Below, in pieces: positions 86 through 16,942 of a stretch of DNA of 64,000 nucleotides. A model generated the notes under the pieces. It had not been told where the DNA came from. It saw nothing but the letters and a program-made list of their open reading frames with translations, and did not search any database. Source of the stretch: Natrinema sp. SYSU A 869 (lineage in GTDB: Archaea > Halobacteriota > Halobacteria > Halobacteriales > Natrialbaceae). The stretch is taken from assembly GCF_019879105.1 (NCBI RefSeq), contig NZ_CP082249.1, forward strand, positions 310,001 to 374,000, in the 5' to 3' direction. Position numbers and translations under genes: made by a program. The stretch's first letter is position 1; each line of letters starts with the position of its first letter.

Positions 86-2017
86 ATGTCCCAGGAAAGC
101 GATTACGGAGCCGGGCAGATTCAGGTCTTAGAGGGCCTGGAGGCTGTACGAAAGCGACCGGCAATGTACATCGGCTCTACCGATTCTCGAGGACTCCACC
201 ATCTGGTCTATGAAGTGGTGGACAACTCGATCGACGAGGCACTGGCCGGCCACTGTGACGATATCACCGTCTCCATCCACGAGGACGGATCGGTGAGCGT
301 CGCGGACGACGGCCGAGGTATCCCCGTCGACACACACGAGGAGTACGACCGCCCTGCACTCGAGGTCATTCTGACTGTCCTCCACGCTGGCGGCAAGTTC
401 GACAACAAGTCCTATCAGGTCTCCGGGGGCCTCCACGGCGTCGGGGTGAGCGTGGTGAACGCTCTTTCCGAACGGCTGGAGGCCGAGGTCAAACGCAACG
501 ATGGAATCTTCCGCCACGCCTTCGAAGGCGGCGAACCCGTCGGCGACATGGAGCACGTTCGCGACATGGAGCCGGACGAGGAGACGGGAACCCAGATCCG
601 GTTCTGGCCCGATACTGGCATCTTCGAGACGGGCGACGTCTCGTTCTCGACGCTGTCGAACCGGCTTCGGGAACTCGCCTTCCTCAACTCCGGCGTCCGC
701 ATCACGCTCCGCGACGAGCGCAAGGACGACGACGAGGGCGAGCCCGTCGCCGAGACCTACGAGTACGACGGTGGCATCCGCGAGTTCGTCGACTATCTGA
801 ACGAGACGCGCTCGGCGATGCACGACGACATCATCTACTTCGAGGACGAAGAACAGAACATCCAGATCGAAGTCGCGATGCAAGCCACTCAGGAGCTGCA
901 GGGCTCGATCCACGCCTTCGCAAACAATATCAACACTCGCGAGGGCGGCACCCACCTCACCGGGTTCAAGACTGCGTTGACACGAACGGTCAACGATTAC
1001 GCCAACGAAAACGACCTGCTCTCGGACCTCGATAACAACCTCTCGGGCGAGGACATCCGCGAGGGACTCACTGCGGTCATCTCGATCAAACACCCCGATC
1101 CCCAGTTCGAGGGCCAGACGAAGACCAAACTCGGCAACTCGGAAGTCCGGGGGATCGTCGAGAGCGCGATGCACGAAGGGCTCGGCACCTACTTCGAGGA
1201 ACACCCCGACACCGCCGAGGCCATCGTCGCCAAGGCCGTCGAGGCTGCGAAGGCCCGCATGGCCGCCCAGAAGGCCGAGGAGTTGACCCGCCGGAAGTCC
1301 GCCCTTGATTCCACCTCCCTGCCCGGCAAACTGGCGGACTGCCAGACCAAAAATCCCGACGAGGCCGAACTGTTCATCGCGGAGGGTGACTCCGCAGGTG
1401 GCAGCGCGAAACAGGCCCGGAACCCGGATTTCCAGGCCATTCTTCCCATCAAGGGGAAGATTCTGAACGTCGAGAAACACCGACTCGATCGCATCCTCGA
1501 GAACGACGAGATACGGAACATGATCACCGCGATCGGTGCGGGGATCGGCGATGAGTTCGACGTCGAGGACGTCCGCTACAAGAAGATCATCATGGCGACC
1601 GACGCCGACGTTGACGGGGCACACATCCGGACGCTCCTGTTGACGTTCTTCTACCGACACATGCGGCCACTGCTCGAGGGCGGCTACGTCTACGCAACCC
1701 AGCCGCCGCTGTACCGCATCCGGTATCGTGGCGAGACCTACGACGCGATGACGGAAGCCGAACGCGACGAGATCGTTGCGGAGAAGTGCGACGGCAACCC
1801 CTCGCAGGTCCAGCGGTTCAAGGGACTCGGCGAGATGAACCCCGAACAACTCTGGGAGACGACGATGAACCCCGACAACCGCATCCTCAAACAGATAACG
1901 ATCGAGGACGCGGCCGCGGCGGACAAGATGTTCTCCGTCCTGATGGGCGACGCCGTCGAACCCCGCAAGCAGTTCATCAAGGACCACGCGCCGGAAGCCG
2001 AGTGGATCGACATATAA
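86..2017 (+). CDS. gyrB: DNA gyrase subunit B
   Basis: ATPase subunit of DNA gyrase, which with GyrA introduces negative supercoils. The 643-residue product has the GHKL ATPase signatures EVVDNSIDEALAG (about 43-55), DDGRGIP (74-80) and GGLHGVGVSVVNALS (113-127), then the TOPRIM motifs EGDSAGG (about 433) and DADVDGAH (about 506) and the C-terminal QRFKGLGEMNPEQLWETTM. Length matches the short archaeal/Gram-positive GyrB type. The frame is open from 41, but the ATG at 86 (MSQESDYGAGQ) is chosen because family similarity begins there and a box A-like sequence lies inside the extension. gyrA follows after 18 nt, so an operon is likely. Confidence 0.97.
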   Translation: MSQESDYGAGQIQVLEGLEAVRKRPAMYIGSTDSRGLHHLVYEVVDNSIDEALAGHCDDITVSIHEDGSVSVADDGRGIPVDTHEEYDRPALEVILTVLHAGGKFDNKSYQVSGGLHGVGVSVVNALSERLEAEVKRNDGIFRHAFEGGEPVGDMEHVRDMEPDEETGTQIRFWPDTGIFETGDVSFSTLSNRLRELAFLNSGVRITLRDERKDDDEGEPVAETYEYDGGIREFVDYLNETRSAMHDDIIYFEDEEQNIQIEVAMQATQELQGSIHAFANNINTREGGTHLTGFKTALTRTVNDYANENDLLSDLDNNLSGEDIREGLTAVISIKHPDPQFEGQTKTKLGNSEVRGIVESAMHEGLGTYFEEHPDTAEAIVAKAVEAAKARMAAQKAEELTRRKSALDSTSLPGKLADCQTKNPDEAELFIAEGDSAGGSAKQARNPDFQAILPIKGKILNVEKHRLDRILENDEIRNMITAIGAGIGDEFDVEDVRYKKIIMATDADVDGAHIRTLLLTFFYRHMRPLLEGGYVYATQPPLYRIRYRGETYDAMTEAERDEIVAEKCDGNPSQVQRFKGLGEMNPEQLWETTMNPDNRILKQITIEDAAAADKMFSVLMGDAVEPRKQFIKDHAPEAEWIDI

Positions 2018-2030
2018 TATAGAATATATA
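2010..2030 (+). promoter_or_regulatory. AT-rich island, possible gyrA promoter
   Basis: Nineteen bases at 2012-2030 consist of A/T except one G, starting in the last codons of gyrB and ending 5 nt before the gyrA ATG at 2036. A TATA element centred near 2014 would be about 22 nt from the ATG, close to what a leaderless gyrA transcript would need. It may instead be only an AT-rich spacer. Confidence 0.35.
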
Positions 2031-2035
2031 GCGAC

Positions 2036-4537
2036 ATGAGTTCAGACGTACCCGATCCGACGGACGTAGAGGCACGGTCAGTCGAAAACGTCCGTATCGA
2101 AAACGAGATGGAGCAGAGTTACATCGACTACGCGATGAGCGTCATCGCCGGTCGCGCCCTTCCCGACGCCCGCGACGGGCTCAAACCCGTCCACCGGCGC
2201 ATCCTCTACGCGATGCACGAAATGGGCGTCTCGAGCGGCTCGAGTCACCGGAAGTCCTCCTCGATCGTCGGGGAGACGATGGGTGACTACCACCCCCACG
2301 GCGACAGTGCGATCTACGATACCCTAGTCCGGCTGGCCCAGGACTTCTCGATGCGGTATCCGCTGATCGACGGCCAGGGGAACTTCGGCTCGATGGACGG
2401 TGACCCGGCTGCTGCGCCCCGATACACTGAGGCGCGGATGGCCCCCGTCGCTGAGGAGTTACTCGAGGACATCGACAAGGATACGGTCGACTTCTCGGCG
2501 AACTACGACGACCGCCTGCAAGAGCCCGACGTGCTCCCGGCGGCGTTTCCGAATCTCCTCGTGAATGGGTCCTCGGGGATCGCGGTCGGGATGTCGACGA
2601 ATATCCCGCCACACAACCTCGGCGAGGTCATTGACGCGACGATCGAACTGATCGACGACCCCGACGCGACTGTCGACGACCTGATGGAACACGTCAAGGG
2701 GCCGGACTTCCCAACCGGTGCGAACATCGTCGGCCGAGACGCCATCTACTCGGCGTACAAGACCGGTCGCGGCCGCATCCGCGTCCGCGCCGAGTTCGAG
2801 GTCGAGGAGTGGAAATCGAACCGCGAGCGGATCGTCATCACCGAACTTCCCTTCCAGGCCAATAAGGCTCGCCTCGTCGAGCGCATTGCCGAGGACGTCA
2901 ACGAGGGCGAAATCGAGGGCATCTCCGACCTGCGCGACGAGTCCGACCGCAACGGTGTCCGCGTCGTCGTCGAGCTCAAACGTGGCGCGAACGCTGAGGT
3001 CGTTAAGAACAAACTGCTCGAGAATCACTTAGAGCGAACGTTCGGCGTCATCAACCTCGCACTGGTCGATGGCCAGCCGCGAGTGCTCTCGCTCAAGGAG
3101 ACCCTTGCGGAGTACATTTCCCACCGCCGCGAGGTCGTCCGTCGGCGCAGCGAGTACGATCTCGAGGAGGCTGAGGACCGCGCCCACATCCTTGAGGGCC
3201 GGCTGACAGCCGTCGAGAACGCCGAGAACGTCGTCGAACTGATCCGCAACAGTGAGGACCGCTCGGCCGCGAAAGCGGCGCTGCGGGAGGCCTACGACTT
3301 CTCCGAGGATCAGGCTGCCCACATCGTTCGGATGCAACTCGGTAGTCTCACCTCGATGGAGGCCGCCGAGATCGAAGACGAATACGAGGAGGTTCAGGCC
3401 GAAATCGAGCGCCTGTCCACGATCCTCGAGAGCGAGTCGGAACTCCTCTCGGTGATCAAGGACGAACTTCGCGAGATCAAGGAGGAGTACGCCGACGACC
3501 GCCGCACCTCGATCATCGAAGATCAGGGAACGGTCACGCACGAGGATCTCATCCCCGAGGAAGAGGTGTTCGTCGTCATGACGGAAGACGACTACGTCAA
3601 GCGGATGCCCATCGACGGCTTCGACCCCCAGGGTCGGGGCGGCAAGGGCATCATCGGCGCGGACGTCAAAGAGGATGACCGCGTCTCAACGGTCTTCCGG
3701 GCCAATACTCACGACTATCTGCTCTGTTTCACTAATCAGGGCGAGGTCTACCGGCTCAAGACCTACGAAATCCCCGAGATGGGCCGTACGGCCCGCGGGA
3801 AGTCGGCGGTCAACATCCTCGATCTCGACCCCGGCGAAGACATCACGGCCATCGTCGACACCGACGCCTTTGGCGCCGACGAATTCGTGACGATGGCGAC
3901 CCGGAACGGCTACGTCAAGCGGACCGCCGGCGAGGAGTTCGACAACATCCTCTCGACAGGGATCATTGCGGCCGACCTCGAGGAGGGCGACGAACTCGTC
4001 GACGTCGAGGTCACCGACGGCTCGCAGGACCTCGTCATCGCGACCGAGGGCGGGATGACCATCCGCTTCGACGAGGGCGAAGTCCGTGCGATGGGCCGGA
4101 ACGCCCGCGGGGTTAACGGCATCAAGCTGCAAGACGGCGACGCCGTAGCCGGACTCGTCGCGACCGACGAGGACGACGAACAAGCACTGCTGACCGTTAC
4201 GGAGAACGGTTACGGGAAGCGGACGCTGCTTTCCGAGTATCGCACCCAGTCCCGGTACGGCAAGGGGCTGATCGACATCAAGACCGGCGAGCGAAACGGT
4301 CCCGTGACGGCCGTTAAGGCGGTCGACGACGATGATCAGCTCGTGATGATGAGCGAGCGCGGCCAGATCGCCCGGACCCGCGTCGACGAAATCTCGACCG
4401 TCGGCCGGAACACGATGGGCGTGATCGTCATGGATGTCGAAGACGGCGACGCGGTCGCTGCGGTCGACGACATTCCGGCGGTGGCGACCACCGACGGCGA
4501 CGACGCGACCGACGAGGTCGAGGAAGTAGCCGAGTAA
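2036..4537 (+). CDS. gyrA: DNA gyrase subunit A
   Basis: DNA cleavage and rejoining subunit of gyrase, 833 residues. Visible are the N-terminal [18 protein letters not shown] segment, the winged-helix region [11 protein letters not shown] that holds the quinolone-pocket Ser and Asp, and the catalytic tyrosine Tyr130 in [12 protein letters not shown] coiled-coil tower follows (roughly 340-490). The C-terminal beta-pinwheel carries the GyrA box as QGRGGKG near residue 532, the feature that separates true gyrase from topo IV. The tail from about 810 is strongly acidic, as expected for a halophile. Downstream of gyrB by 18 nt on the same strand. Confidence 0.97.
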
Positions 4538-9769: not shown

Positions 9770-10315
9770 TTACGTCGCGGCCGGAAAGTCGTCCTCATCG
9801 CCGCCGTCATCGCCCATCTGTCGGGCCGGCACGCCCGCAACCGTCGCTCCGGGCGGCACGTCACGTGTCACGAGGGAGTTCGCCGCGACGCTAGCCCCCT
9901 CGCCGATCTCGACGCCTGGGAGAACGATCGCACCGGCCCCGATCATCGCCCGTTCGCCGACGATGACCTCGCCCGTTCGATACTCGTCTTGGAGGAACTC
10001 GTGACAGAGGATCGTCGCGTCGTAGCCGATAATCACGTCCTCCCTCACGGTGATCAGATCCGGCCAGAAGACGTCCGGCGTGGCCTCGAGCCCCCAGGAA
10101 ACGCCCTCCCCGACCGTGACGCCGATCCGTCGGAGGAGCCAGCGCTTGAGTCGGAGGCTGGGCGAAATCCGAACGAGCCAGACGACGATATAATTGATCG
10201 CGACCCGGAGCGGGTTGCGAGCGGCGGTCCAGTGGGCCAGCGAATTTTGCGGCCCGGGCGTCGCGTGACGCTCGACGCGATCGTGTCGCGGCGTCGGTTC
10301 GTCGGAAGTCGTCAC
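9770..10315 (-). CDS. Hexapeptide-repeat acyltransferase
   Basis: A 181-residue left-handed beta-helix protein of the LacA/NodL/maltose O-acetyltransferase type. Imperfect hexapeptide turns run from about 70 to 165 (VGEGVSWG, ITVREDVIIGYDATI, VIVGERAMIGAGAIVLPGVEIGEGASVAANSLVTRDVPP) and end in the typical VAGVPARQMG. The histidine in ILCHEF is a candidate catalytic base. A short hydrophobic helix at about 35-55 (LRVAINYIVVWLVRI) may attach it to the membrane. The acceptor is unknown; surface glycans or lipids are reasonable guesses. Confidence 0.85.
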   Translation of the reverse strand: MTTSDEPTPRHDRVERHATPGPQNSLAHWTAARNPLRVAINYIVVWLVRISPSLRLKRWLLRRIGVTVGEGVSWGLEATPDVFWPDLITVREDVIIGYDATILCHEFLQDEYRTGEVIVGERAMIGAGAIVLPGVEIGEGASVAANSLVTRDVPPGATVAGVPARQMGDDGGDEDDFPAAT

Positions 10316-10625: not shown

Positions 10626-10973
10626 ATGGCACAGACCAGACAGGCGACCCTCGAGACCGATACAGTCTTCACCATTCTCTCGAATACGACGCATCGATCC
10701 CTCCTGTGGTATCTCTCTGCCGTCGAGCGGGCGACCGTTCGGGAACTTGCAGGTCACCTCGCACCGTCGAACGACGACGGCAGCGACTCCCGTCTCGAAT
10801 CTCATCAAAGCGCTCTCGTCGCATTGACACACGATCACCTCCCGCGGCTGGCGGCGTACGGCGTCGTCGACTACGATCGATCGGCAGACGACGTGACGAT
10901 CGGACCGAATTTCGACGAGGTCAAACCGTTCCTCACACAGTTCGAGGACGTCGAAATCGATTCAGTCGAATAA
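10626..10973 (+). CDS. Small haloarchaeal helix-turn-helix protein
   Basis: A 115-residue acidic protein of the type widespread in haloarchaea as a stand-alone winged helix (I recall it as DUF7344-like). It has the core FTILSNTTHRSLLWYLSAV, ATVRELAGHLA, and LTHDHLPRLAAYGVVDYD followed by a beta-wing. Residue 40 onwards includes a Ser/Asp-rich insert. It is presumably a transcription factor; targets are unknown. It converges with the Nmad3-like gene, with only 13 nt between the stops. Confidence 0.75.
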   Translation: MAQTRQATLETDTVFTILSNTTHRSLLWYLSAVERATVRELAGHLAPSNDDGSDSRLESHQSALVALTHDHLPRLAAYGVVDYDRSADDVTIGPNFDEVKPFLTQFEDVEIDSVE

Positions 10974-10986
10974 AACCCCGAAGCCC

Positions 10987-11796
10987 TCAGATGCGACCGT
11001 TCCGTGTGGCCGAGCGATCACCGGGAAGACCGACCAGTTCCCGGAACGCAGCGCCCGAGAGCCCACACCGATAGGCCGGCTTGAACATCATGTTCGCGCC
11101 GCCGGCCTGAACGTCCCACTCGGACGCGATCTCGTCGCGAAGGTAGTACTGCGCTCGCTCGTTGCCCTCCCTGACGTAGTAGTCACTGATCCGGATCGGG
11201 TCGCGCTTGAAGAGGCCGCCGGGCTCGCGGCCGTCGACGATCACGACCTGCTTCTCGAGATACAGGTCGCCGTCCCGAGCGCGTTTCGCGTGGGCGTTCG
11301 CCGGGTGGGCCTCGAGAATCGCCTCGCGCTCGGTCGGCGGCGTCTCGGGGCCGACGACGGCCACGTCGTCGACGGTGAAGTAGCCGATCAGGTAGCGGTG
11401 CGCGCGGTCCCCGTCGGGCCGTCGCAGGCCCGCATAGAATCCGACGACGTCGCCCGGCTCGAGCGCCTGCAGTCGCGAGACGTAGCCGCTGGTCCGGTGT
11501 TCGCCGTAAGTCAGCCCCTCGAAGTTTGGATCGCGATGAAGGGGCCAGGACTCGAGGGCCTCGTCGGTGACAGATTCCGTCCCGTCGTGGACGGGCTGGG
11601 GCGTGATGCGAGTCGTCAGATCCGCCGCAATGCCGTCGCCGGCCCGTAACTCCCACGAGCCGAGCGTTTCAGATTCGGTTGTCTCCCGCGTTTTCTCTGG
11701 GATCGGGACGTACTCGAAGCGGCCGTCGTCGTAGAGCGGAGCCAGCGCGCCGACGTTCGTGCTGTCAGCGCCGACGCCGGCAAGAACGACAGTCAT
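10987..11796 (-). CDS. Nmad3-like putative nucleotide-modification protein
   Basis: A 269-residue cytosolic protein. The N-terminus MTVVLAGVGADSTNVGALAPL and the following YVPIPEK resemble the nucleotide modification-associated domain 3 (Nmad3) family, whose members begin with a similar strand, an S/T-rich turn and a PIPE motif. Further blocks are GLTYGEHRTSGYVSRLQALEPGDVVGFYAGLR, a family-like strand HRYLIGYFTV and KPAYRCGLSGAAFRELVGL at the end. No catalytic residues are known to me. The frame runs on upstream to 12378, but the extension lacks coding character, and ATG 11796 fits. The family assignment is recalled, not searched. Confidence 0.6.
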   Translation of the reverse strand: MTVVLAGVGADSTNVGALAPLYDDGRFEYVPIPEKTRETTESETLGSWELRAGDGIAADLTTRITPQPVHDGTESVTDEALESWPLHRDPNFEGLTYGEHRTSGYVSRLQALEPGDVVGFYAGLRRPDGDRAHRYLIGYFTVDDVAVVGPETPPTEREAILEAHPANAHAKRARDGDLYLEKQVVIVDGREPGGLFKRDPIRISDYYVREGNERAQYYLRDEIASEWDVQAGGANMMFKPAYRCGLSGAAFRELVGLPGDRSATRNGRI

Positions 11797-12243
11797 GGTG
11801 CGATTCGTATCCGTCGATCGGCGCGAGACGGCGATAAATCCGCCGATCGGTCGCCGGGCTTCCCACGGGGTGAGTTCGTCGCGACCGCTGCCGTTGGGCG
11901 GCTCACACTGTGGAGCTACCTGGCCAGTCGCTCGGACTCGAGCGGCGGCGGATCGGCCATCTCGATCGAGATCGGTTCGCCGTAGGCCTCGAGACCGCAC
12001 ACGCATACGGGTCGGGTCGGCCGCTGGTGAGTTAGCTATTCGTCCCGCAACAGCCCGTCCGTGGAGAATCACGAGCTGGCTCGAGCTGTTCGTCACGCTA
12101 TCGAATTGATGCCGACGGTTGCTCCCGCGAATACGTCTTCGCACCCGGAAAACGACCGCACGGAACGGGGGACGAAGCGCGCTGCAGACCAGCAGATCGT
12201 ATCTATAACAACTGTTATCGGGACGGCCGTTCCAAAGCCGCGT
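11797..12243. other. Gap between divergent genes, with coding-like remnant
   Basis: This 447-bp divergent promoter region contains no intact gene. On the minus strand at about 11916-12005 a short frame ending in TAG reads GLEAYGEPISIEMADPPP and continues LESERLAR. It has almost only G/C third bases and looks like the C-terminal tail of a lost gene or a very short ORF starting GTG. AT-rich sequence at 12201-12219 (atctataacaactgttat) is a candidate promoter for the metallo-hydrolase. Confidence 0.35.
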
Positions 12244-12978
12244 ATGCGTGTCACCTTTCTCGGCACGGGCAGCGCGATGCCCACCGGCGAACGCTTTCAG
12301 GCGGGGATCCTCGTGCAGGACGATGGCCGGACGCTGCTGCTGGACTGCGGTGCCGGCGCGCTCCAGCGGCTCCAGCAATCCGGCGTCGGCTACGAGAACG
12401 TCTCGACCGTTCTACTGACACATCACCATCTCGACCACGTCGCCGACCTGCTGCCGCTGATGAAGGCACGCTGGCTCGCCGGCGAGGAATACCTCGAGGT
12501 CGTCGGGCCACAGGGGACGAAAGCGCTGATCGACGACCTGCTCTCGGTCCATGAATACATGCGAGACAAGATCGAGTTGCAGGTCAGAGAGGTGGTCGAC
12601 GGCGAGTTCTCCGTTGCCGGCTTCGATGTCTCGGCCTACGAAACGCGCCACTCGCTGCCCTGTCTGGCCTATCGATTCGACGACCGCTTTACGTTCAGCG
12701 GCGACAGCGAAGCCTTCACGGGGCTGGCGAACTTCGCAGAGGGATCGGCGATCCTCGCCCACGACTGCTCGTTCCCCGACGATGTCGACGTCTCGAATCA
12801 TCCGACACCGGACACGCTCGGCCGGGCGCTGGCCGGCCGCGACATCGGGCGCGTCTACCTGACTCACCTCTATCCACACACTGAGGGCCGTCACGACGAG
12901 ATGCTCGAGTCAATCGGCGCTCACTACGACGGTGACGTTCGGTTCGCCGAGGATCTCAAGACGGTTTCCATCGAGTAG
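12244..12978 (+). CDS. RNase Z-like MBL-fold metallo-hydrolase
   Basis: A 244-residue metallo-beta-lactamase fold enzyme. The start MRVTFLGTGSAMPT is typical of the RNase Z/ElaC and related branch. The di-zinc motif is THHHLDHVADL (about residues 59-69). A further ligand is the Asp in FSGDSEAF, and others are His in AHDCSF and THLYPHTEGRHDEM. The long RNase Z exosite arm is not evident, and the protein is shorter than archaeal tRNase Z (about 300), so a different phosphodiesterase role is possible. ATG 12244 is chosen over the upstream extension. Confidence 0.82.
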   Translation: MRVTFLGTGSAMPTGERFQAGILVQDDGRTLLLDCGAGALQRLQQSGVGYENVSTVLLTHHHLDHVADLLPLMKARWLAGEEYLEVVGPQGTKALIDDLLSVHEYMRDKIELQVREVVDGEFSVAGFDVSAYETRHSLPCLAYRFDDRFTFSGDSEAFTGLANFAEGSAILAHDCSFPDDVDVSNHPTPDTLGRALAGRDIGRVYLTHLYPHTEGRHDEMLESIGAHYDGDVRFAEDLKTVSIE

Positions 12979-13196: not shown

Positions 13197-16190
13197 ATGA
13201 GCGTCCTCGACCGGTTCGCGGACGCCATCACGTCGCATACACGTATCGTACTCGTTGTTCTCCTGCTCCTGACGGCGCTCATCGGGGCCGGAATGCCGAT
13301 GGTTGACGATGACTCCTCGCTCTCCCAGTTCGAGGGCGAATCCGAGGAAGCGAAAGCCCTCGAGCGCAGTAATGAGAACTTCACGAGCGAGCAACAGGAG
13401 AACACGACCCGCGTCCAGGTAATCGCACGCGGCGACAACGTGCTCACGAGAGAGTCGCTGATTTCGTCGCTCGAGTTCCAGCAGGAACTCCGGGCGAACG
13501 AGTCGATCAATGCCACGCTCGTCGAGAACCAGTCGATAACCGGCGTCGAGAACCTCATCGCGATCTCCGCGATCAGAAACGAGGAAGCGGCGGCGCTAAA
13601 CGAGACGAGCGCGCGACTCGAGTCGGGTCTCAACGAGACGGTTGGGCTCCAGCGCCAGTACGAGCAGTTGAATGCATCGTACGAGAGCGAGTCGATCAAC
13701 CAGACCGAGTATCAGGCTCAGTCGGCCGAGCTCGAGGCGCAGTTCGAGACCATCGTTGAGAACGCGACCGACGGGCTCACCGCGAATCAGACGGCCCAGT
13801 ACGAGTCGACCGTCCAACAGGCTCGGGAGATCGAATCGCAGCGCTTCGCGATTCGGTCGTCGACCGAGAATCCGAGTGAAGACCCCGAGTATCAGCGACT
13901 CACCGAGCAACTCGAGGGTGTGTATCGGAACGGGACGGCCGGCGTCCTCGAAGCGGAGTACGCGGCGTTGCAAAGCGAGGATCGGCCACCCCTCGACGAG
14001 CAGATCGCGGCCCTCGAGGATCTGAGCGACGAAGAGTACGAGCGGACCCTCGAAGGGACGCTTTCGGCAAACAACTCCGACGACAACGTCGCGATCGCGT
14101 TGATGCCGCCGTCGTACGATCCGGGCAGTACTACGGCCGAGGCCCGGATGACCTTGGTGACCCAGGCGACCGCCGGCGACAGTGCCGAGGGGATGGGCGG
14201 CGGCGCAGTCAGCGATCAGATAATCGACAGCCAGATCGACATCCGTGAGCTGGCGGAGACGCAGACGCAGGACTCCCTCGTCTTCGGCAGCGGGCTGATT
14301 ACTGACGAGATCGATCGCTCGATGGGAGACAGCCTCGCCATCGTCGGCCCGCTGGCCCTGCTGTTCGTCGTCGTCGCGCTGCTGGTCGCGTATCGCGACC
14401 CGCTCGACATCGTCCTCGGAGTCGTCGGCATCGTCGCCGTCCTCGTCTGGACGTTCGGCTTCATGGGCTGGGCGGACATCGCTTTCAACCAGATGTTCGT
14501 CGCGGTACCAGTCCTCTTGATCGGGCTCTCGATCGACTACGCGATTCACGTCTTCATGCGGCATCGCGAGCAGCGCGAGACCGACGGCACCGGCGGGACC
14601 GTCCGCGGCTCGATGACGACCGCGCTGGCCGGCGTCGGAGCCGCCCTCGTCTGGGTGACGGCCACGACCGTCATCGGCTTCCTCTCGAACCTCGTCAGCC
14701 CGATCGCCCCCATTCGGGAGTTCGGGATCGTCAGCTCCGTCGGGATCGTCGCCGCGCTGATCGTCTTCGGCGCGCTGATCCCCGCCGCCAAGGTCGAGAT
14801 CGACGAGTTCCTCGAGTCCCGCGGGATTGATCGCCGCAAGCGCGCGTTCGGGACCGGCGGCGGCCGCTTCAGCGAGATCCTGACGGTCGGTTCGACCGCC
14901 GCCCGCCGGATTCCACTGGTCATCATCCTCCTCGTTGCCCTGCTCACCGTCGGCGGCGCATACGGCGCGACCCAGGTCGACACCAGTTTCCAGGAGGAAG
15001 ACTTCCTCGCGGATAATCCTCCAGAGTGGACTCAGACGCTGCCCGGCGGGATGGCACCCGGCGAGTATCACGCCAAGGACGACCTCGAGTACGTCAACGA
15101 GCACTTCCAGCGCCAGGACCGGCAGGCACAGATCCTCGTCGAGGGGAACGTCACCGATCCCGCGGCACTCGAAGAAATCGACGTCGCCCGAGAGAATGCC
15201 GCCGAAAGCGGTGTCGCACACATGCTCGCGACCAATGAGACCGACATACAGGACCCGCTCTCGACGATGGAACGGACGGCCGGACGGAACGAGTCCTTCA
15301 ACGAGTCGTTCAACGCGGCCAACACCGACGACGACGGCGTTCCCGATGAGAACGTCACGGCGCTGTACGACCAACTCTTCGAAATCGACGCGGAGAGTGC
15401 GAATCAAGTCATCCACCGAACCGACGGCGGCGAGTATCAGTCGGCCCGGATGGTCATCGCCGTCAAAGGTGACGCCACGTCGAGCGAGGCGACCAGCGAA
15501 ATGCGCGATATCGCCAGCGGCATCGAGGACGGCAGCGATGGCCGCTGGAGCGCCATCGCAACCGGCGACCCCATTGTCAGCTATATCGTCGAACAGGACT
15601 TGCTCGATACCGTCCTCGAGAGCCTGATCATCACGCTCGTGGCGGTATTCCTGTTCCTCACCGTTGCTTACCGGCTGACGGGTAACAGCGCCTCGCTGGG
15701 TGCCGTGACCCTCCTGCCGGTTGCGTTCTCCGTCAGCTGGATTCTGGGGACGATGTACCTTATCGGCATGCCCTTCAACGTGCTCACGGGGATGATCACC
15801 AGCCTCACCGTCGGGCTCGGCGTCGCCTACAGCATCCATATCAGCGAACGATACAGGCTCGAGCTCGAGCGCCAGGGCAACGTCTGGTCGGCGCTGCAGA
15901 CGACCGTCACCGGCACCGGCGGGGCGCTGCTCGGCAGTGCCGCGACCACCGTCGGCGGCTTCGGGACGCTCGCCTTCGCGATTCTCCCCGCACTGCGGCA
16001 GTTCGGGATCATCACCGGGCTGACGATCACCTACGCGTTCCTGGCCAGCGTCGTCGTCCTCCCGACGCTGCTGGTCCTCTGGACGCGGTACTTCGGGCCA
16101 GACGTCTCCTTCGACGCGTCGGGTGGGCGGACAGCGACGCCCACTGCGAGCGACGGCGGGACCGAACCCAACCGGGGTGACGACGAGTGA
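13197..16190 (+). CDS. MMPL/RND-family transporter
   Basis: A 997-residue membrane transporter built as two repeats of one TM helix, a large extracellular domain and five TM helices. TM1 is about 15-35 (TRIVLVVLLLLTALIGAGM). A long Glu/Asn-rich coiled extracellular domain follows to about 370. The first TM bundle (about 380-545) has LIGLSIDYAIHVFMRHR, and the second (about 790-960) has SLTVGLGVAYSIHISERY, the paired GxxxDY/GxAYSI motifs of this family. It probably exports lipids or hydrophobic compounds using the ion gradient. A Shine-Dalgarno-like GAGGTGA ends 4 nt before ATG 13197. The next gene overlaps by 4 nt. Confidence 0.88.
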   Translation: MSVLDRFADAITSHTRIVLVVLLLLTALIGAGMPMVDDDSSLSQFEGESEEAKALERSNENFTSEQQENTTRVQVIARGDNVLTRESLISSLEFQQELRANESINATLVENQSITGVENLIAISAIRNEEAAALNETSARLESGLNETVGLQRQYEQLNASYESESINQTEYQAQSAELEAQFETIVENATDGLTANQTAQYESTVQQAREIESQRFAIRSSTENPSEDPEYQRLTEQLEGVYRNGTAGVLEAEYAALQSEDRPPLDEQIAALEDLSDEEYERTLEGTLSANNSDDNVAIALMPPSYDPGSTTAEARMTLVTQATAGDSAEGMGGGAVSDQIIDSQIDIRELAETQTQDSLVFGSGLITDEIDRSMGDSLAIVGPLALLFVVVALLVAYRDPLDIVLGVVGIVAVLVWTFGFMGWADIAFNQMFVAVPVLLIGLSIDYAIHVFMRHREQRETDGTGGTVRGSMTTALAGVGAALVWVTATTVIGFLSNLVSPIAPIREFGIVSSVGIVAALIVFGALIPAAKVEIDEFLESRGIDRRKRAFGTGGGRFSEILTVGSTAARRIPLVIILLVALLTVGGAYGATQVDTSFQEEDFLADNPPEWTQTLPGGMAPGEYHAKDDLEYVNEHFQRQDRQAQILVEGNVTDPAALEEIDVARENAAESGVAHMLATNETDIQDPLSTMERTAGRNESFNESFNAANTDDDGVPDENVTALYDQLFEIDAESANQVIHRTDGGEYQSARMVIAVKGDATSSEATSEMRDIASGIEDGSDGRWSAIATGDPIVSYIVEQDLLDTVLESLIITLVAVFLFLTVAYRLTGNSASLGAVTLLPVAFSVSWILGTMYLIGMPFNVLTGMITSLTVGLGVAYSIHISERYRLELERQGNVWSALQTTVTGTGGALLGSAATTVGGFGTLAFAILPALRQFGIITGLTITYAFLASVVVLPTLLVLWTRYFGPDVSFDASGGRTATPTASDGGTEPNRGDDE

Positions 16191-16942
16191 GCAGTGACGA
16201 AATCGAGGCCATCAACGCCTTCGAACAGTTGGGCCTCACCAGCTACGAGGCCAAGGTGTTCATCGCACTCCATCGACTGAGCGCGGGCACGGCCAGGGAC
16301 GTCGCCGACATCGCGGACGTGCCGCGCTCGCAGGTCTACAGCGTCGCCGAGAGCTTAGAGGACCGCGGGCTGCTCGAGGTTCAGCAGTCGAGTCCGATCC
16401 GGTACCGGCCGGTCAGCGTCGAGGAGGCGCGAGAGACGCTCCGAGATCAGTTCGAGCGCGAGCAGGATCGGGCGTTCGAGCACGTCGAAGCCGTCAAAAA
16501 CGAACCGGACGGCGAGGAGACCCAGGAGGACATCTGGACGGTTCGCGGCCGGGACCGCGTCGACGACCGAACCCTCGATATCCTCTCGCAGGCCGAGAGT
16601 CGGATCGTCTTCGGGACCCGCCTCCCAGAACTCGTCACGGCGCCGATCGAACGGACGCTCGCTGAGCGCGCGGCGGCCGGCGTCACGATACTCGTCGTGA
16701 GCAGACGGGACGATGTCCAGGAGCAGTTCGCCGATGTCGAAGGTGTTACCGTCAAGCGCCCACCGGCCCACCGGACGGACGATGAGCGGTCCGGTCGGAT
16801 CGTCATCGCCGACGACGATAGCATCCTCCTGAGCGTCCTCGGCGGCGAAGGCAGTGAGACAGCGATCTGGAGTTCGGGCTCGCTGTTCGCCTCCGTGCTC
16901 ATCCAGCTGATCGAGGCCAGCGACGAAGTGCAAGTGGAATAA
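16187..16942 (+). CDS. TrmB-family transcriptional regulator
   Basis: A 251-residue regulator with the TrmB winged helix at residues 1-75 (FEQLGLTSYEAKVFIALHRLSAGTA, VADVPRSQVYSVAESLEDRGLLEV). A C-terminal ligand-sensing domain (about 105-250) includes a phospholipase D-like strand set with DDDSILLSVLG. TrmB proteins usually sense sugars, but this short form lacks the long sugar-binding part. It starts with GTG overlapping the transporter stop by 4 nt (GTGA), so translation is probably coupled and the regulator likely controls the exporter. Confidence 0.85.
   Translation: MSSDEIEAINAFEQLGLTSYEAKVFIALHRLSAGTARDVADIADVPRSQVYSVAESLEDRGLLEVQQSSPIRYRPVSVEEARETLRDQFEREQDRAFEHVEAVKNEPDGEETQEDIWTVRGRDRVDDRTLDILSQAESRIVFGTRLPELVTAPIERTLAERAAAGVTILVVSRRDDVQEQFADVEGVTVKRPPAHRTDDERSGRIVIADDDSILLSVLGGEGSETAIWSSGSLFASVLIQLIEASDEVQVE

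Follow-up and report, generated by a model that had tools for sequence, protein, structure and literature searches.

The window, by which we mean the whole stretch of 64,000 nucleotides analysed here, is part of a haloarchaeal chromosome (contig C3 of a 5.67 Mb assembly) and carries on its minus strand a gene for a protein of the Nmad3 family (Table 1). The two neighbours named in the preliminary description are indeed there, a small HTH protein, convergent with the gene, and an MBL-fold hydrolase, divergent from it; an acyltransferase lies downstream, and the gyrB and gyrA genes, some 6.5 kb away, provide a housekeeping anchor. The RNase Z-like character given earlier to the hydrolase is a likeness only, at 127 bits with the RNase Z model against a cut-off of 293, and the protein is probably not a tRNA-processing RNase Z. 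It also has weak similarity to Apyc1 and to a cyclic-nucleotide phosphodiesterase model. The best NCBIfam match of the acyltransferase is NF058585 (heptaprenylglyceryl phosphate O-acetyltransferase), with 147 of 300 bits, and it is possibly an archaeal lipid acetyltransferase. Upstream of the Nmad3 gene a TATA-like box is found, and 29 of 46 Natrialbaceae upstream regions have such a word equally far from the start codon (over 500 shuffles the mean was 1.4 and the maximum 5), which suggests that the gene may have its own promoter and a short leader.

Table 1. Nmad3 gene and surrounding features in the window, and related features at other loci (locus handle before the colon).
Feature	Position	Strand	Evidence or remark
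gyrB and gyrA, housekeeping anchor	86..4537	+	DNA_gyraseB E 3.2e-61, DNA_topoisoIV E 5.4e-166 (Pfam)
Hexapeptide-repeat acyltransferase, downstream neighbour kept in Natrialbaceae	9770..10315	-	PF00132 E 2.2e-10
Small HTH protein DUF7344, convergent neighbour	10626..10973	+	PF24035 E 6.5e-16
Nmad3 ORF, 269 aa and stop, ATG start	11796..10987	-	Pfam PF18754
TATA-like box TTTATC	11833..11838	-	37-42 nt upstream of the Nmad3 start codon
MBL-fold hydrolase, divergent neighbour	12244..12978	+	PF12706 E 1.1e-16
MMPL-family transporter gene, then directly a TrmB-type regulator	13197-16942		
Cys-ended Nmad3 fusions	L091:5904-7187; L192:6001-7293; L101:296-1807		
Cys-ended Nmad3-Nmad2 frames	L234:757-2088; L236:1048-2730; L237:453-1352		
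Cys-ended Nmad2 proteins or fusions	L233:1447-2088; L235:1438-2079; L229:1000-1617; L227:3076-3567		
Island with fused Nmad3, presumably Natrinema mahii	L091:606-13302		
Nmad3 fusion beside QueC-family and PfkB protein	L192:6001-9272		Plasmid pHOS300, Halorientalis sp. IM1011
Bacterial Nmad3, annotated hypothetical	L191:7962-9989		Megaplasmid pHG1, Cupriavidus necator H16
Fused PyrK-PyrD (dihydroorotate dehydrogenase) gene abutting Nmad3	L229:2358-4142; L230:829-2598		Gaps 0-1 bp

The protein scores 129.3 bits against the PF18754 (Nmad3) profile of Pfam (E 2.4e-37, cut-off 27), with its residues 3-232 aligned to profile positions 2-222 of 247, so that the family assignment proposed in the preliminary description is confirmed. 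It carries the motifs PIPE (residues 31-34), HxDP (87-90), D-x3-FY (116-121) and NAHxKR (167-172), the first of which had been recognised earlier. In a comparison of clades A, B and O of the family (18, 35 and 15 rows, respectively), the residues kept across all three are F27, the whole PIPE motif, H87, D89, P90, D116, F120-Y121, NAH 167-169, R172 and G189, and H87, D89 and H169 are found in nearly all members. The bacterial-type protein of L227 can still be aligned at H87 and D89, but not at the NAH site. NCBIfam has no match for the window protein, and by sequence it has no relative in the PDB. The literature searched, which covers few subscription papers, yielded none on Nmad3 function; three phage papers on Nmad domains concern Nmad1, Nmad5 or an unnumbered domain, and DefensePredictor lists an unnumbered NMAD domain among its predicted defence domains (PMC13092281).

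The dN/dS ratio was 0.15-0.28 in all eight comparisons with Natrialbaceae orthologues, indicating purifying selection. A protein search gave a match in 52 of 61 relatives; the gene is present in all 29 genomes of the same genus, the G017 copy being in two pieces in different frames, and in all eight genomes of the other sampled genera of the family. Given this presence and these ratios the open reading frame is not a chance one, and it is a real gene that has been kept. On a wider scale, of 242 high-quality haloarchaeal genomes 182 have PF18754, spread over 58 of 73 genera; it is present in 54 of the 61 genomes of the window's family and in none of 14 named control genomes, and a 246-genome sample of the phylum of a methanogen relative held 44 genomes with it, many of them again haloarchaea. 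By these figures, which count genomes of Halobacteriota, Nmad3 is near-core in haloarchaea.

In a tree of 70 proteins haloarchaeal Nmad3 falls into two clades, A (18 rows, SH-aLRT 100) and B (35 rows, 99), the latter with the window protein, and the rest form O (17 rows, 78). Clade A has a syntenic place with an acyltransferase and a DUF7577 gene upstream and, downstream, a gene that we take from its sequence to be NAD synthetase-like. Outside the window's family clade B occupies other housekeeping places, one example being the position directly after DapD (Pfam) in five loci (L172, L173, L175, L179 and L180), where other surrounding genes, to judge from their sequences, presumably belong to the lysine pathway. 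Within Natrialbaceae the syntenic block that holds the gene also includes a pyridine-nucleotide-disulphide oxidoreductase, the acyltransferase and, at some loci, gyrA (a gyrA-like cluster, number 9, appears in 10 of the 61 regions compared). In 46 of 80 loci the acyltransferase lies at most three genes downstream of Nmad3, and as the gaps range from -4 to 715 bp the pairing reflects synteny rather than a tight operon; in Natrinema loci an opposite-strand gene often stands between the two. The DUF7344 protein and the MBL hydrolase were rejected as conserved partners, since of 61 regions only 3 contain the cluster of the former and 4 that of the latter. Natronorubrum bangense has the Nmad3 block both on its chromosome (L138) and on an 828-kb plasmid record (L139), with equal identity to the query, through either a duplication or an assembly effect.

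Nmad3 relatives were found in 5 of 72,556 plasmid records. On the Cupriavidus necator megaplasmid (L191) the bacterial Nmad3 adjoins a restriction endonuclease and a toxin-antitoxin pair. A tblastn search of 50,697 phage records with three queries gave no match, the 121, 3 and 10 pattern stretches matched in three scans of viral contigs included no relative, and a viral fold library returned weak matches only. The PHROG family phrog_34025 consists of very similar proteins (E 1.5e-142), so some phage or prophage set does contain the Nmad3 type. PADLOC models matched none of four Nmad3 proteins, the window protein included, and among 10 neighbouring proteins gave one weak match, of a generic HTH protein to CasR (E 5e-5); no effector, nuclease or partner was seen at the window locus. 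The earlier view that at this locus the gene is outside an evident phage or defence context stands.

At other loci of Halobacteriota Nmad3 has company. A Nmad2 gene stands next to it in L222 (E 5.1e-57), L229 (1.4e-64) and L227 (9.9e-21), and in the haloarchaeal loci L234, L236 and L237 both domains share one open frame. The Nmad2 profile (PF18753) is found in 5 of 242 haloarchaeal genomes and has 0 matches in the window genome, and the window itself holds neither a match to it nor a 290-aa partner of the type seen in four basal clade B loci (L092, L093, L185 and L232). The latter protein is weakly Nmad2-like in profile comparison (probability 79%, E 1.5e-5), and a search for it in the window genome, run without a positive-control genome, was empty. 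The C-terminal domain of the A-type fusions L091 and L192 has a homologue in a methanogen frame, where it precedes Nmad3 (blastp 6e-38 and 2e-31, respectively). We also considered Nmad2 and Nmad3 as homologues of each other, which three profile comparisons did not support (E 0.12 to 0.38, probability 0.5% or less). Nmad3 comes without a match to either partner profile in 153 of 167 regions, many of them redundant, a count that takes in L091, L101 and L192, fusions with a second domain outside those two profiles. Partnered lineages fall within or next to each of the solo clades A and B in the tree. The PyrK-PyrD gene that abuts Nmad3 in L229 and L230 lies on methanogen-like contigs.

The partnered forms share a further trait, in that 10 of 11 Nmad2 or Nmad3-fusion proteins end in Cys, against a background of 9 of 1883 predicted proteins of like regions, in a set that was assembled after the pattern had been noticed and whose members are partly related, so that a nominal probability for this excess overstates its significance. 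L222 is the sole exception. The terminal residue is preceded by flexible tails (SGGC, SCGC, SGSGC, SGPGC and others), which occur on at least two different C-terminal domains, and perhaps three with L101. The L191 Nmad3, the L232 290-aa partner and the L228 frame are not Cys-ended, and the tail is absent from the window protein too.

Nucleotide-modification genes, absent at the window locus, are present beside the fused cousins. All four haloarchaeal fusion loci scanned (L091, L192, L234 and L236) lie near modification or defence-type genes, in a scan whose flank proteins were chosen because they looked informative and which left out L246, L243 and the stand-alone Nmad2 loci L244 and L245. A fused, Cys-tailed Nmad3 is also found in the window's own genus, where the island of the presumed Natrinema mahii (L091) includes two TGT-family proteins, a GHKL ATPase and a DpdJ-like helicase, and looks like a 7-deazapurine-related defence or modification system. 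The place of L234, also sampled as L241, has a DrmD-like SNF2 helicase and a DNA methyltransferase, and that of L236, also sampled as L242, an Eco57I/DrmMI-like methylase, a BrxHII-like helicase and a C5 methyltransferase. The gene listing of L246, which is the same place as L101, contains no clear defence gene, and L243 (L237) is at a contig end.

AlphaFold gave a model of the window protein with mean pLDDT 86.6 and pTM 0.87 (from 43 sequences), and one of a methanogen relative, which is 24-34% identical to other members, with pLDDT 87.0 and pTM 0.84. Foldseek returned no match for either at E 0.001; among the weaker matches the top PDB ranks were THYN1, McrB-N and ASCH structures, the methanogen model reaching E 2.6e-3 and probability 0.98 to m5C-bound McrB-N and probability 0.97 to ZmASCH. 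In structural comparison EVE, ASCH, YTH and McrB-N domains fill nearly all of the best 50 rows of the window model, one row (DrmAB) not being placed as PUA-like, and all of the best 50 of the methanogen model; several of these PDB entries, whose titles do not say so, are presumably PUA-like. The best match of the window model is 2p5d (Z 6.1, hence under 8, rmsd 4.2, 128 aligned), and the methanogen model is closer to the same entry (Z 8.9, rmsd 4.0, 131 aligned), followed by 1wmm (8.5) and 2hd9 (8.3); 6yex and 6p0g are among the matches as well. No confident match to an unrelated fold was obtained. Of 43 members searched with an E limit of 10, none matched the Pfam EVE (PF01878) or ASCH profile, so that by profile Nmad3 belongs to neither family, and the support for the PUA link comes from structure predictions whose Z values are middling. 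We nevertheless infer from the models, with fair confidence, that the Nmad3 fold is PUA-like. EVE was also considered as a stand-in for Nmad3, but it was found in 1 of 41 relatives; a single genome, that of Haloferax volcanii, has EVE and lacks Nmad3. The main text of the EVE census of Bell et al. 2020 makes no mention of Nmad (PMC7641849).

The reading that we favour, and to which we would give an even chance of being right, is that the window protein is a solo, domesticated PUA-like module that serves as a reader or adaptor by binding a nucleotide or modified base. Its Nmad2-type partner, of the kind with which Nmad3 is paired or fused elsewhere, would have been lost, the solo form would have been kept as a housekeeping gene in Natrialbaceae, and a second such form would have been kept in most other haloarchaea. 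Computation establishes the family, its breadth, the purifying selection, the solo state and the partners and fusions at other loci, and from there we infer the fold and the domestication; the nature of the ligand, and binding rather than catalysis, are guesses. The ligand could be a particular nucleotide or modified base, in RNA, in DNA or as a free nucleoside, bound in the PUA-like groove, and E34, H87, D89, D116, Y121, N167, H169 and R172 are candidate ligand residues since they are kept across all clades. The preliminary description had proposed a housekeeping modification of nucleotides or RNA. Its housekeeping part agrees with the breadth, the synteny and the purifying selection. Its modification part has no such support, and the fold predicted here, the one of PUA-like domains that bind modified bases, could mean a reader rather than a modifying enzyme.

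The main rival reading, possible if somewhat unlikely, is that the protein is an enzyme of ASCH-like fold that acts on nucleosides or nucleotides in salvage or repair, for example a hydrolase of acylated or modified nucleosides like YqfB. An ASCH-type enzyme is conceivable because many of the conserved residues are polar (E, H, D, N, H, R), a feature shared with YqfB, and both ZmASCH among the best fold matches and the near-invariant H87, D89 and H169, the first two recognisable even in L227, are consistent with it. The dihydroorotate dehydrogenase gene abutting Nmad3 in L229 and L230 is a hint of nucleotide metabolism, and agrees with a metabolic enzyme no less than with a reader. However, Nmad3 has no sequence match to ASCH. 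YqfB, the N4-acetylcytidine amidohydrolase of E. coli, is an ASCH protein with conserved Lys, Thr, Arg, His and Glu (PMC6972931). It has in common with Nmad3 the fold class predicted for the latter and conserved polar residues including His and Glu, but it has only 103 aa and its Thr-Lys-Glu triad was not located in Nmad3 by sequence conservation.

Two further readings rank below the binding module and the enzyme of the ASCH/YqfB kind. That solo Nmad3 is a constitutive antiviral sensor, fixed on the chromosome outside defence islands and recognising modified viral DNA or RNA, is quite improbable. PUA-like domains are described as specificity modules of modification-dependent restriction (PMC7641849), 6yex and 6p0g were matched, and the islands of the fused cousins do contain DrmD/BrxH/DpdJ-like helicases, DNA methyltransferases, TGT and QueC; but the window locus has no effector, nuclease or partner, PADLOC has no match for the protein and no meaningful one for its 10 neighbours, and the gene keeps a stable housekeeping location across much of a family. 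That Nmad3 is a metabolic partner of the adjacent hexapeptide acyltransferase, acylating a nucleotide or sugar, is hardly credible: although clade B stands beside one acyltransferase in the 46 of 80 loci, clade A beside another (cluster 1, 16 of 61 regions) and several clade B relatives beside DapD, an opposite-strand gene often separates the pair in Natrinema and the window genome has about 12 hexapeptide genes, and we dropped the idea because the clade A type is almost universal (221 of 242 genomes, Nmad3-less ones included) and, at a distance of 2.35 Mb, is not linked to Nmad3 in the window genome.

Returning to the binding module, a bolder version of it, which we consider rather doubtful, is that haloarchaea twice turned a two-part nucleobase module, made of Nmad3 and a Cys-tailed partner and located near QueC, TGT, DNA methyltransferase and DISARM/BREX/Dpd-like genes, into a one-part housekeeping protein. 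In type IV CBASS, QueC-family proteins are described as conjugating a nucleobase to a protein N-terminus (PMC11996544; PMC13279940), and a link between this chemistry and the C-terminal Cys tails is speculation by analogy. The flexible tail of the parent module might then be a site of nucleobase-protein or thiol chemistry, the window protein would keep the recognition half alone, and the solo housekeeping protein would read or clear a modified nucleotide.

The Nmad3 family was already known, and what is new is a solo, near-core member in one archaeal class, within a family named only from base-modification and defence settings. Taken by itself the solo state is not startling. Combined with purifying selection and a predicted base-reading fold, it makes a domain without an assigned function the subject of a testable question about housekeeping, namely which modified nucleotide haloarchaea monitor, and one that can be addressed in a culturable genus (Natrinema). 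The solo forms and their Cys-tailed, partnered cousins in defence-type islands also make up a natural experiment on the passage of an immune or modification module into housekeeping.

Compared with known systems, the best structural neighbours of both predicted models are the EVE, ASCH, YTH and McrB-N domains of the PUA-like superfamily; the matched chains are mostly 130-175 aa long, whereas Nmad3 has 234-269 aa, its own motif set and no profile match to them. The putative Cys-tail chemistry of the parent module would bear a loose likeness to the N-terminal deazaguanylation of type IV CBASS, and the L192 QueC with its PfkB protein resembles QueC cluster 4 as described in PMC13329287. With the Nmad3 family the window protein shares a full-length match to PF18754, far over the cut-off, and the PIPE, HxDP, D-x3-FY and NAHxKR motifs; it differs in being solo and chromosomal, in a genome without Nmad2. 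The family itself is said to have been placed originally, by Iyer et al. in 2013, in base-modification operons. The pairs and fusions of haloarchaea and methanogens (L222, L227, L229, L234, L236 and L237, and L091, L101 and L192) have the same Nmad3 domain as the window protein, and whereas they carry a second domain or have one alongside, the window protein is found solo.
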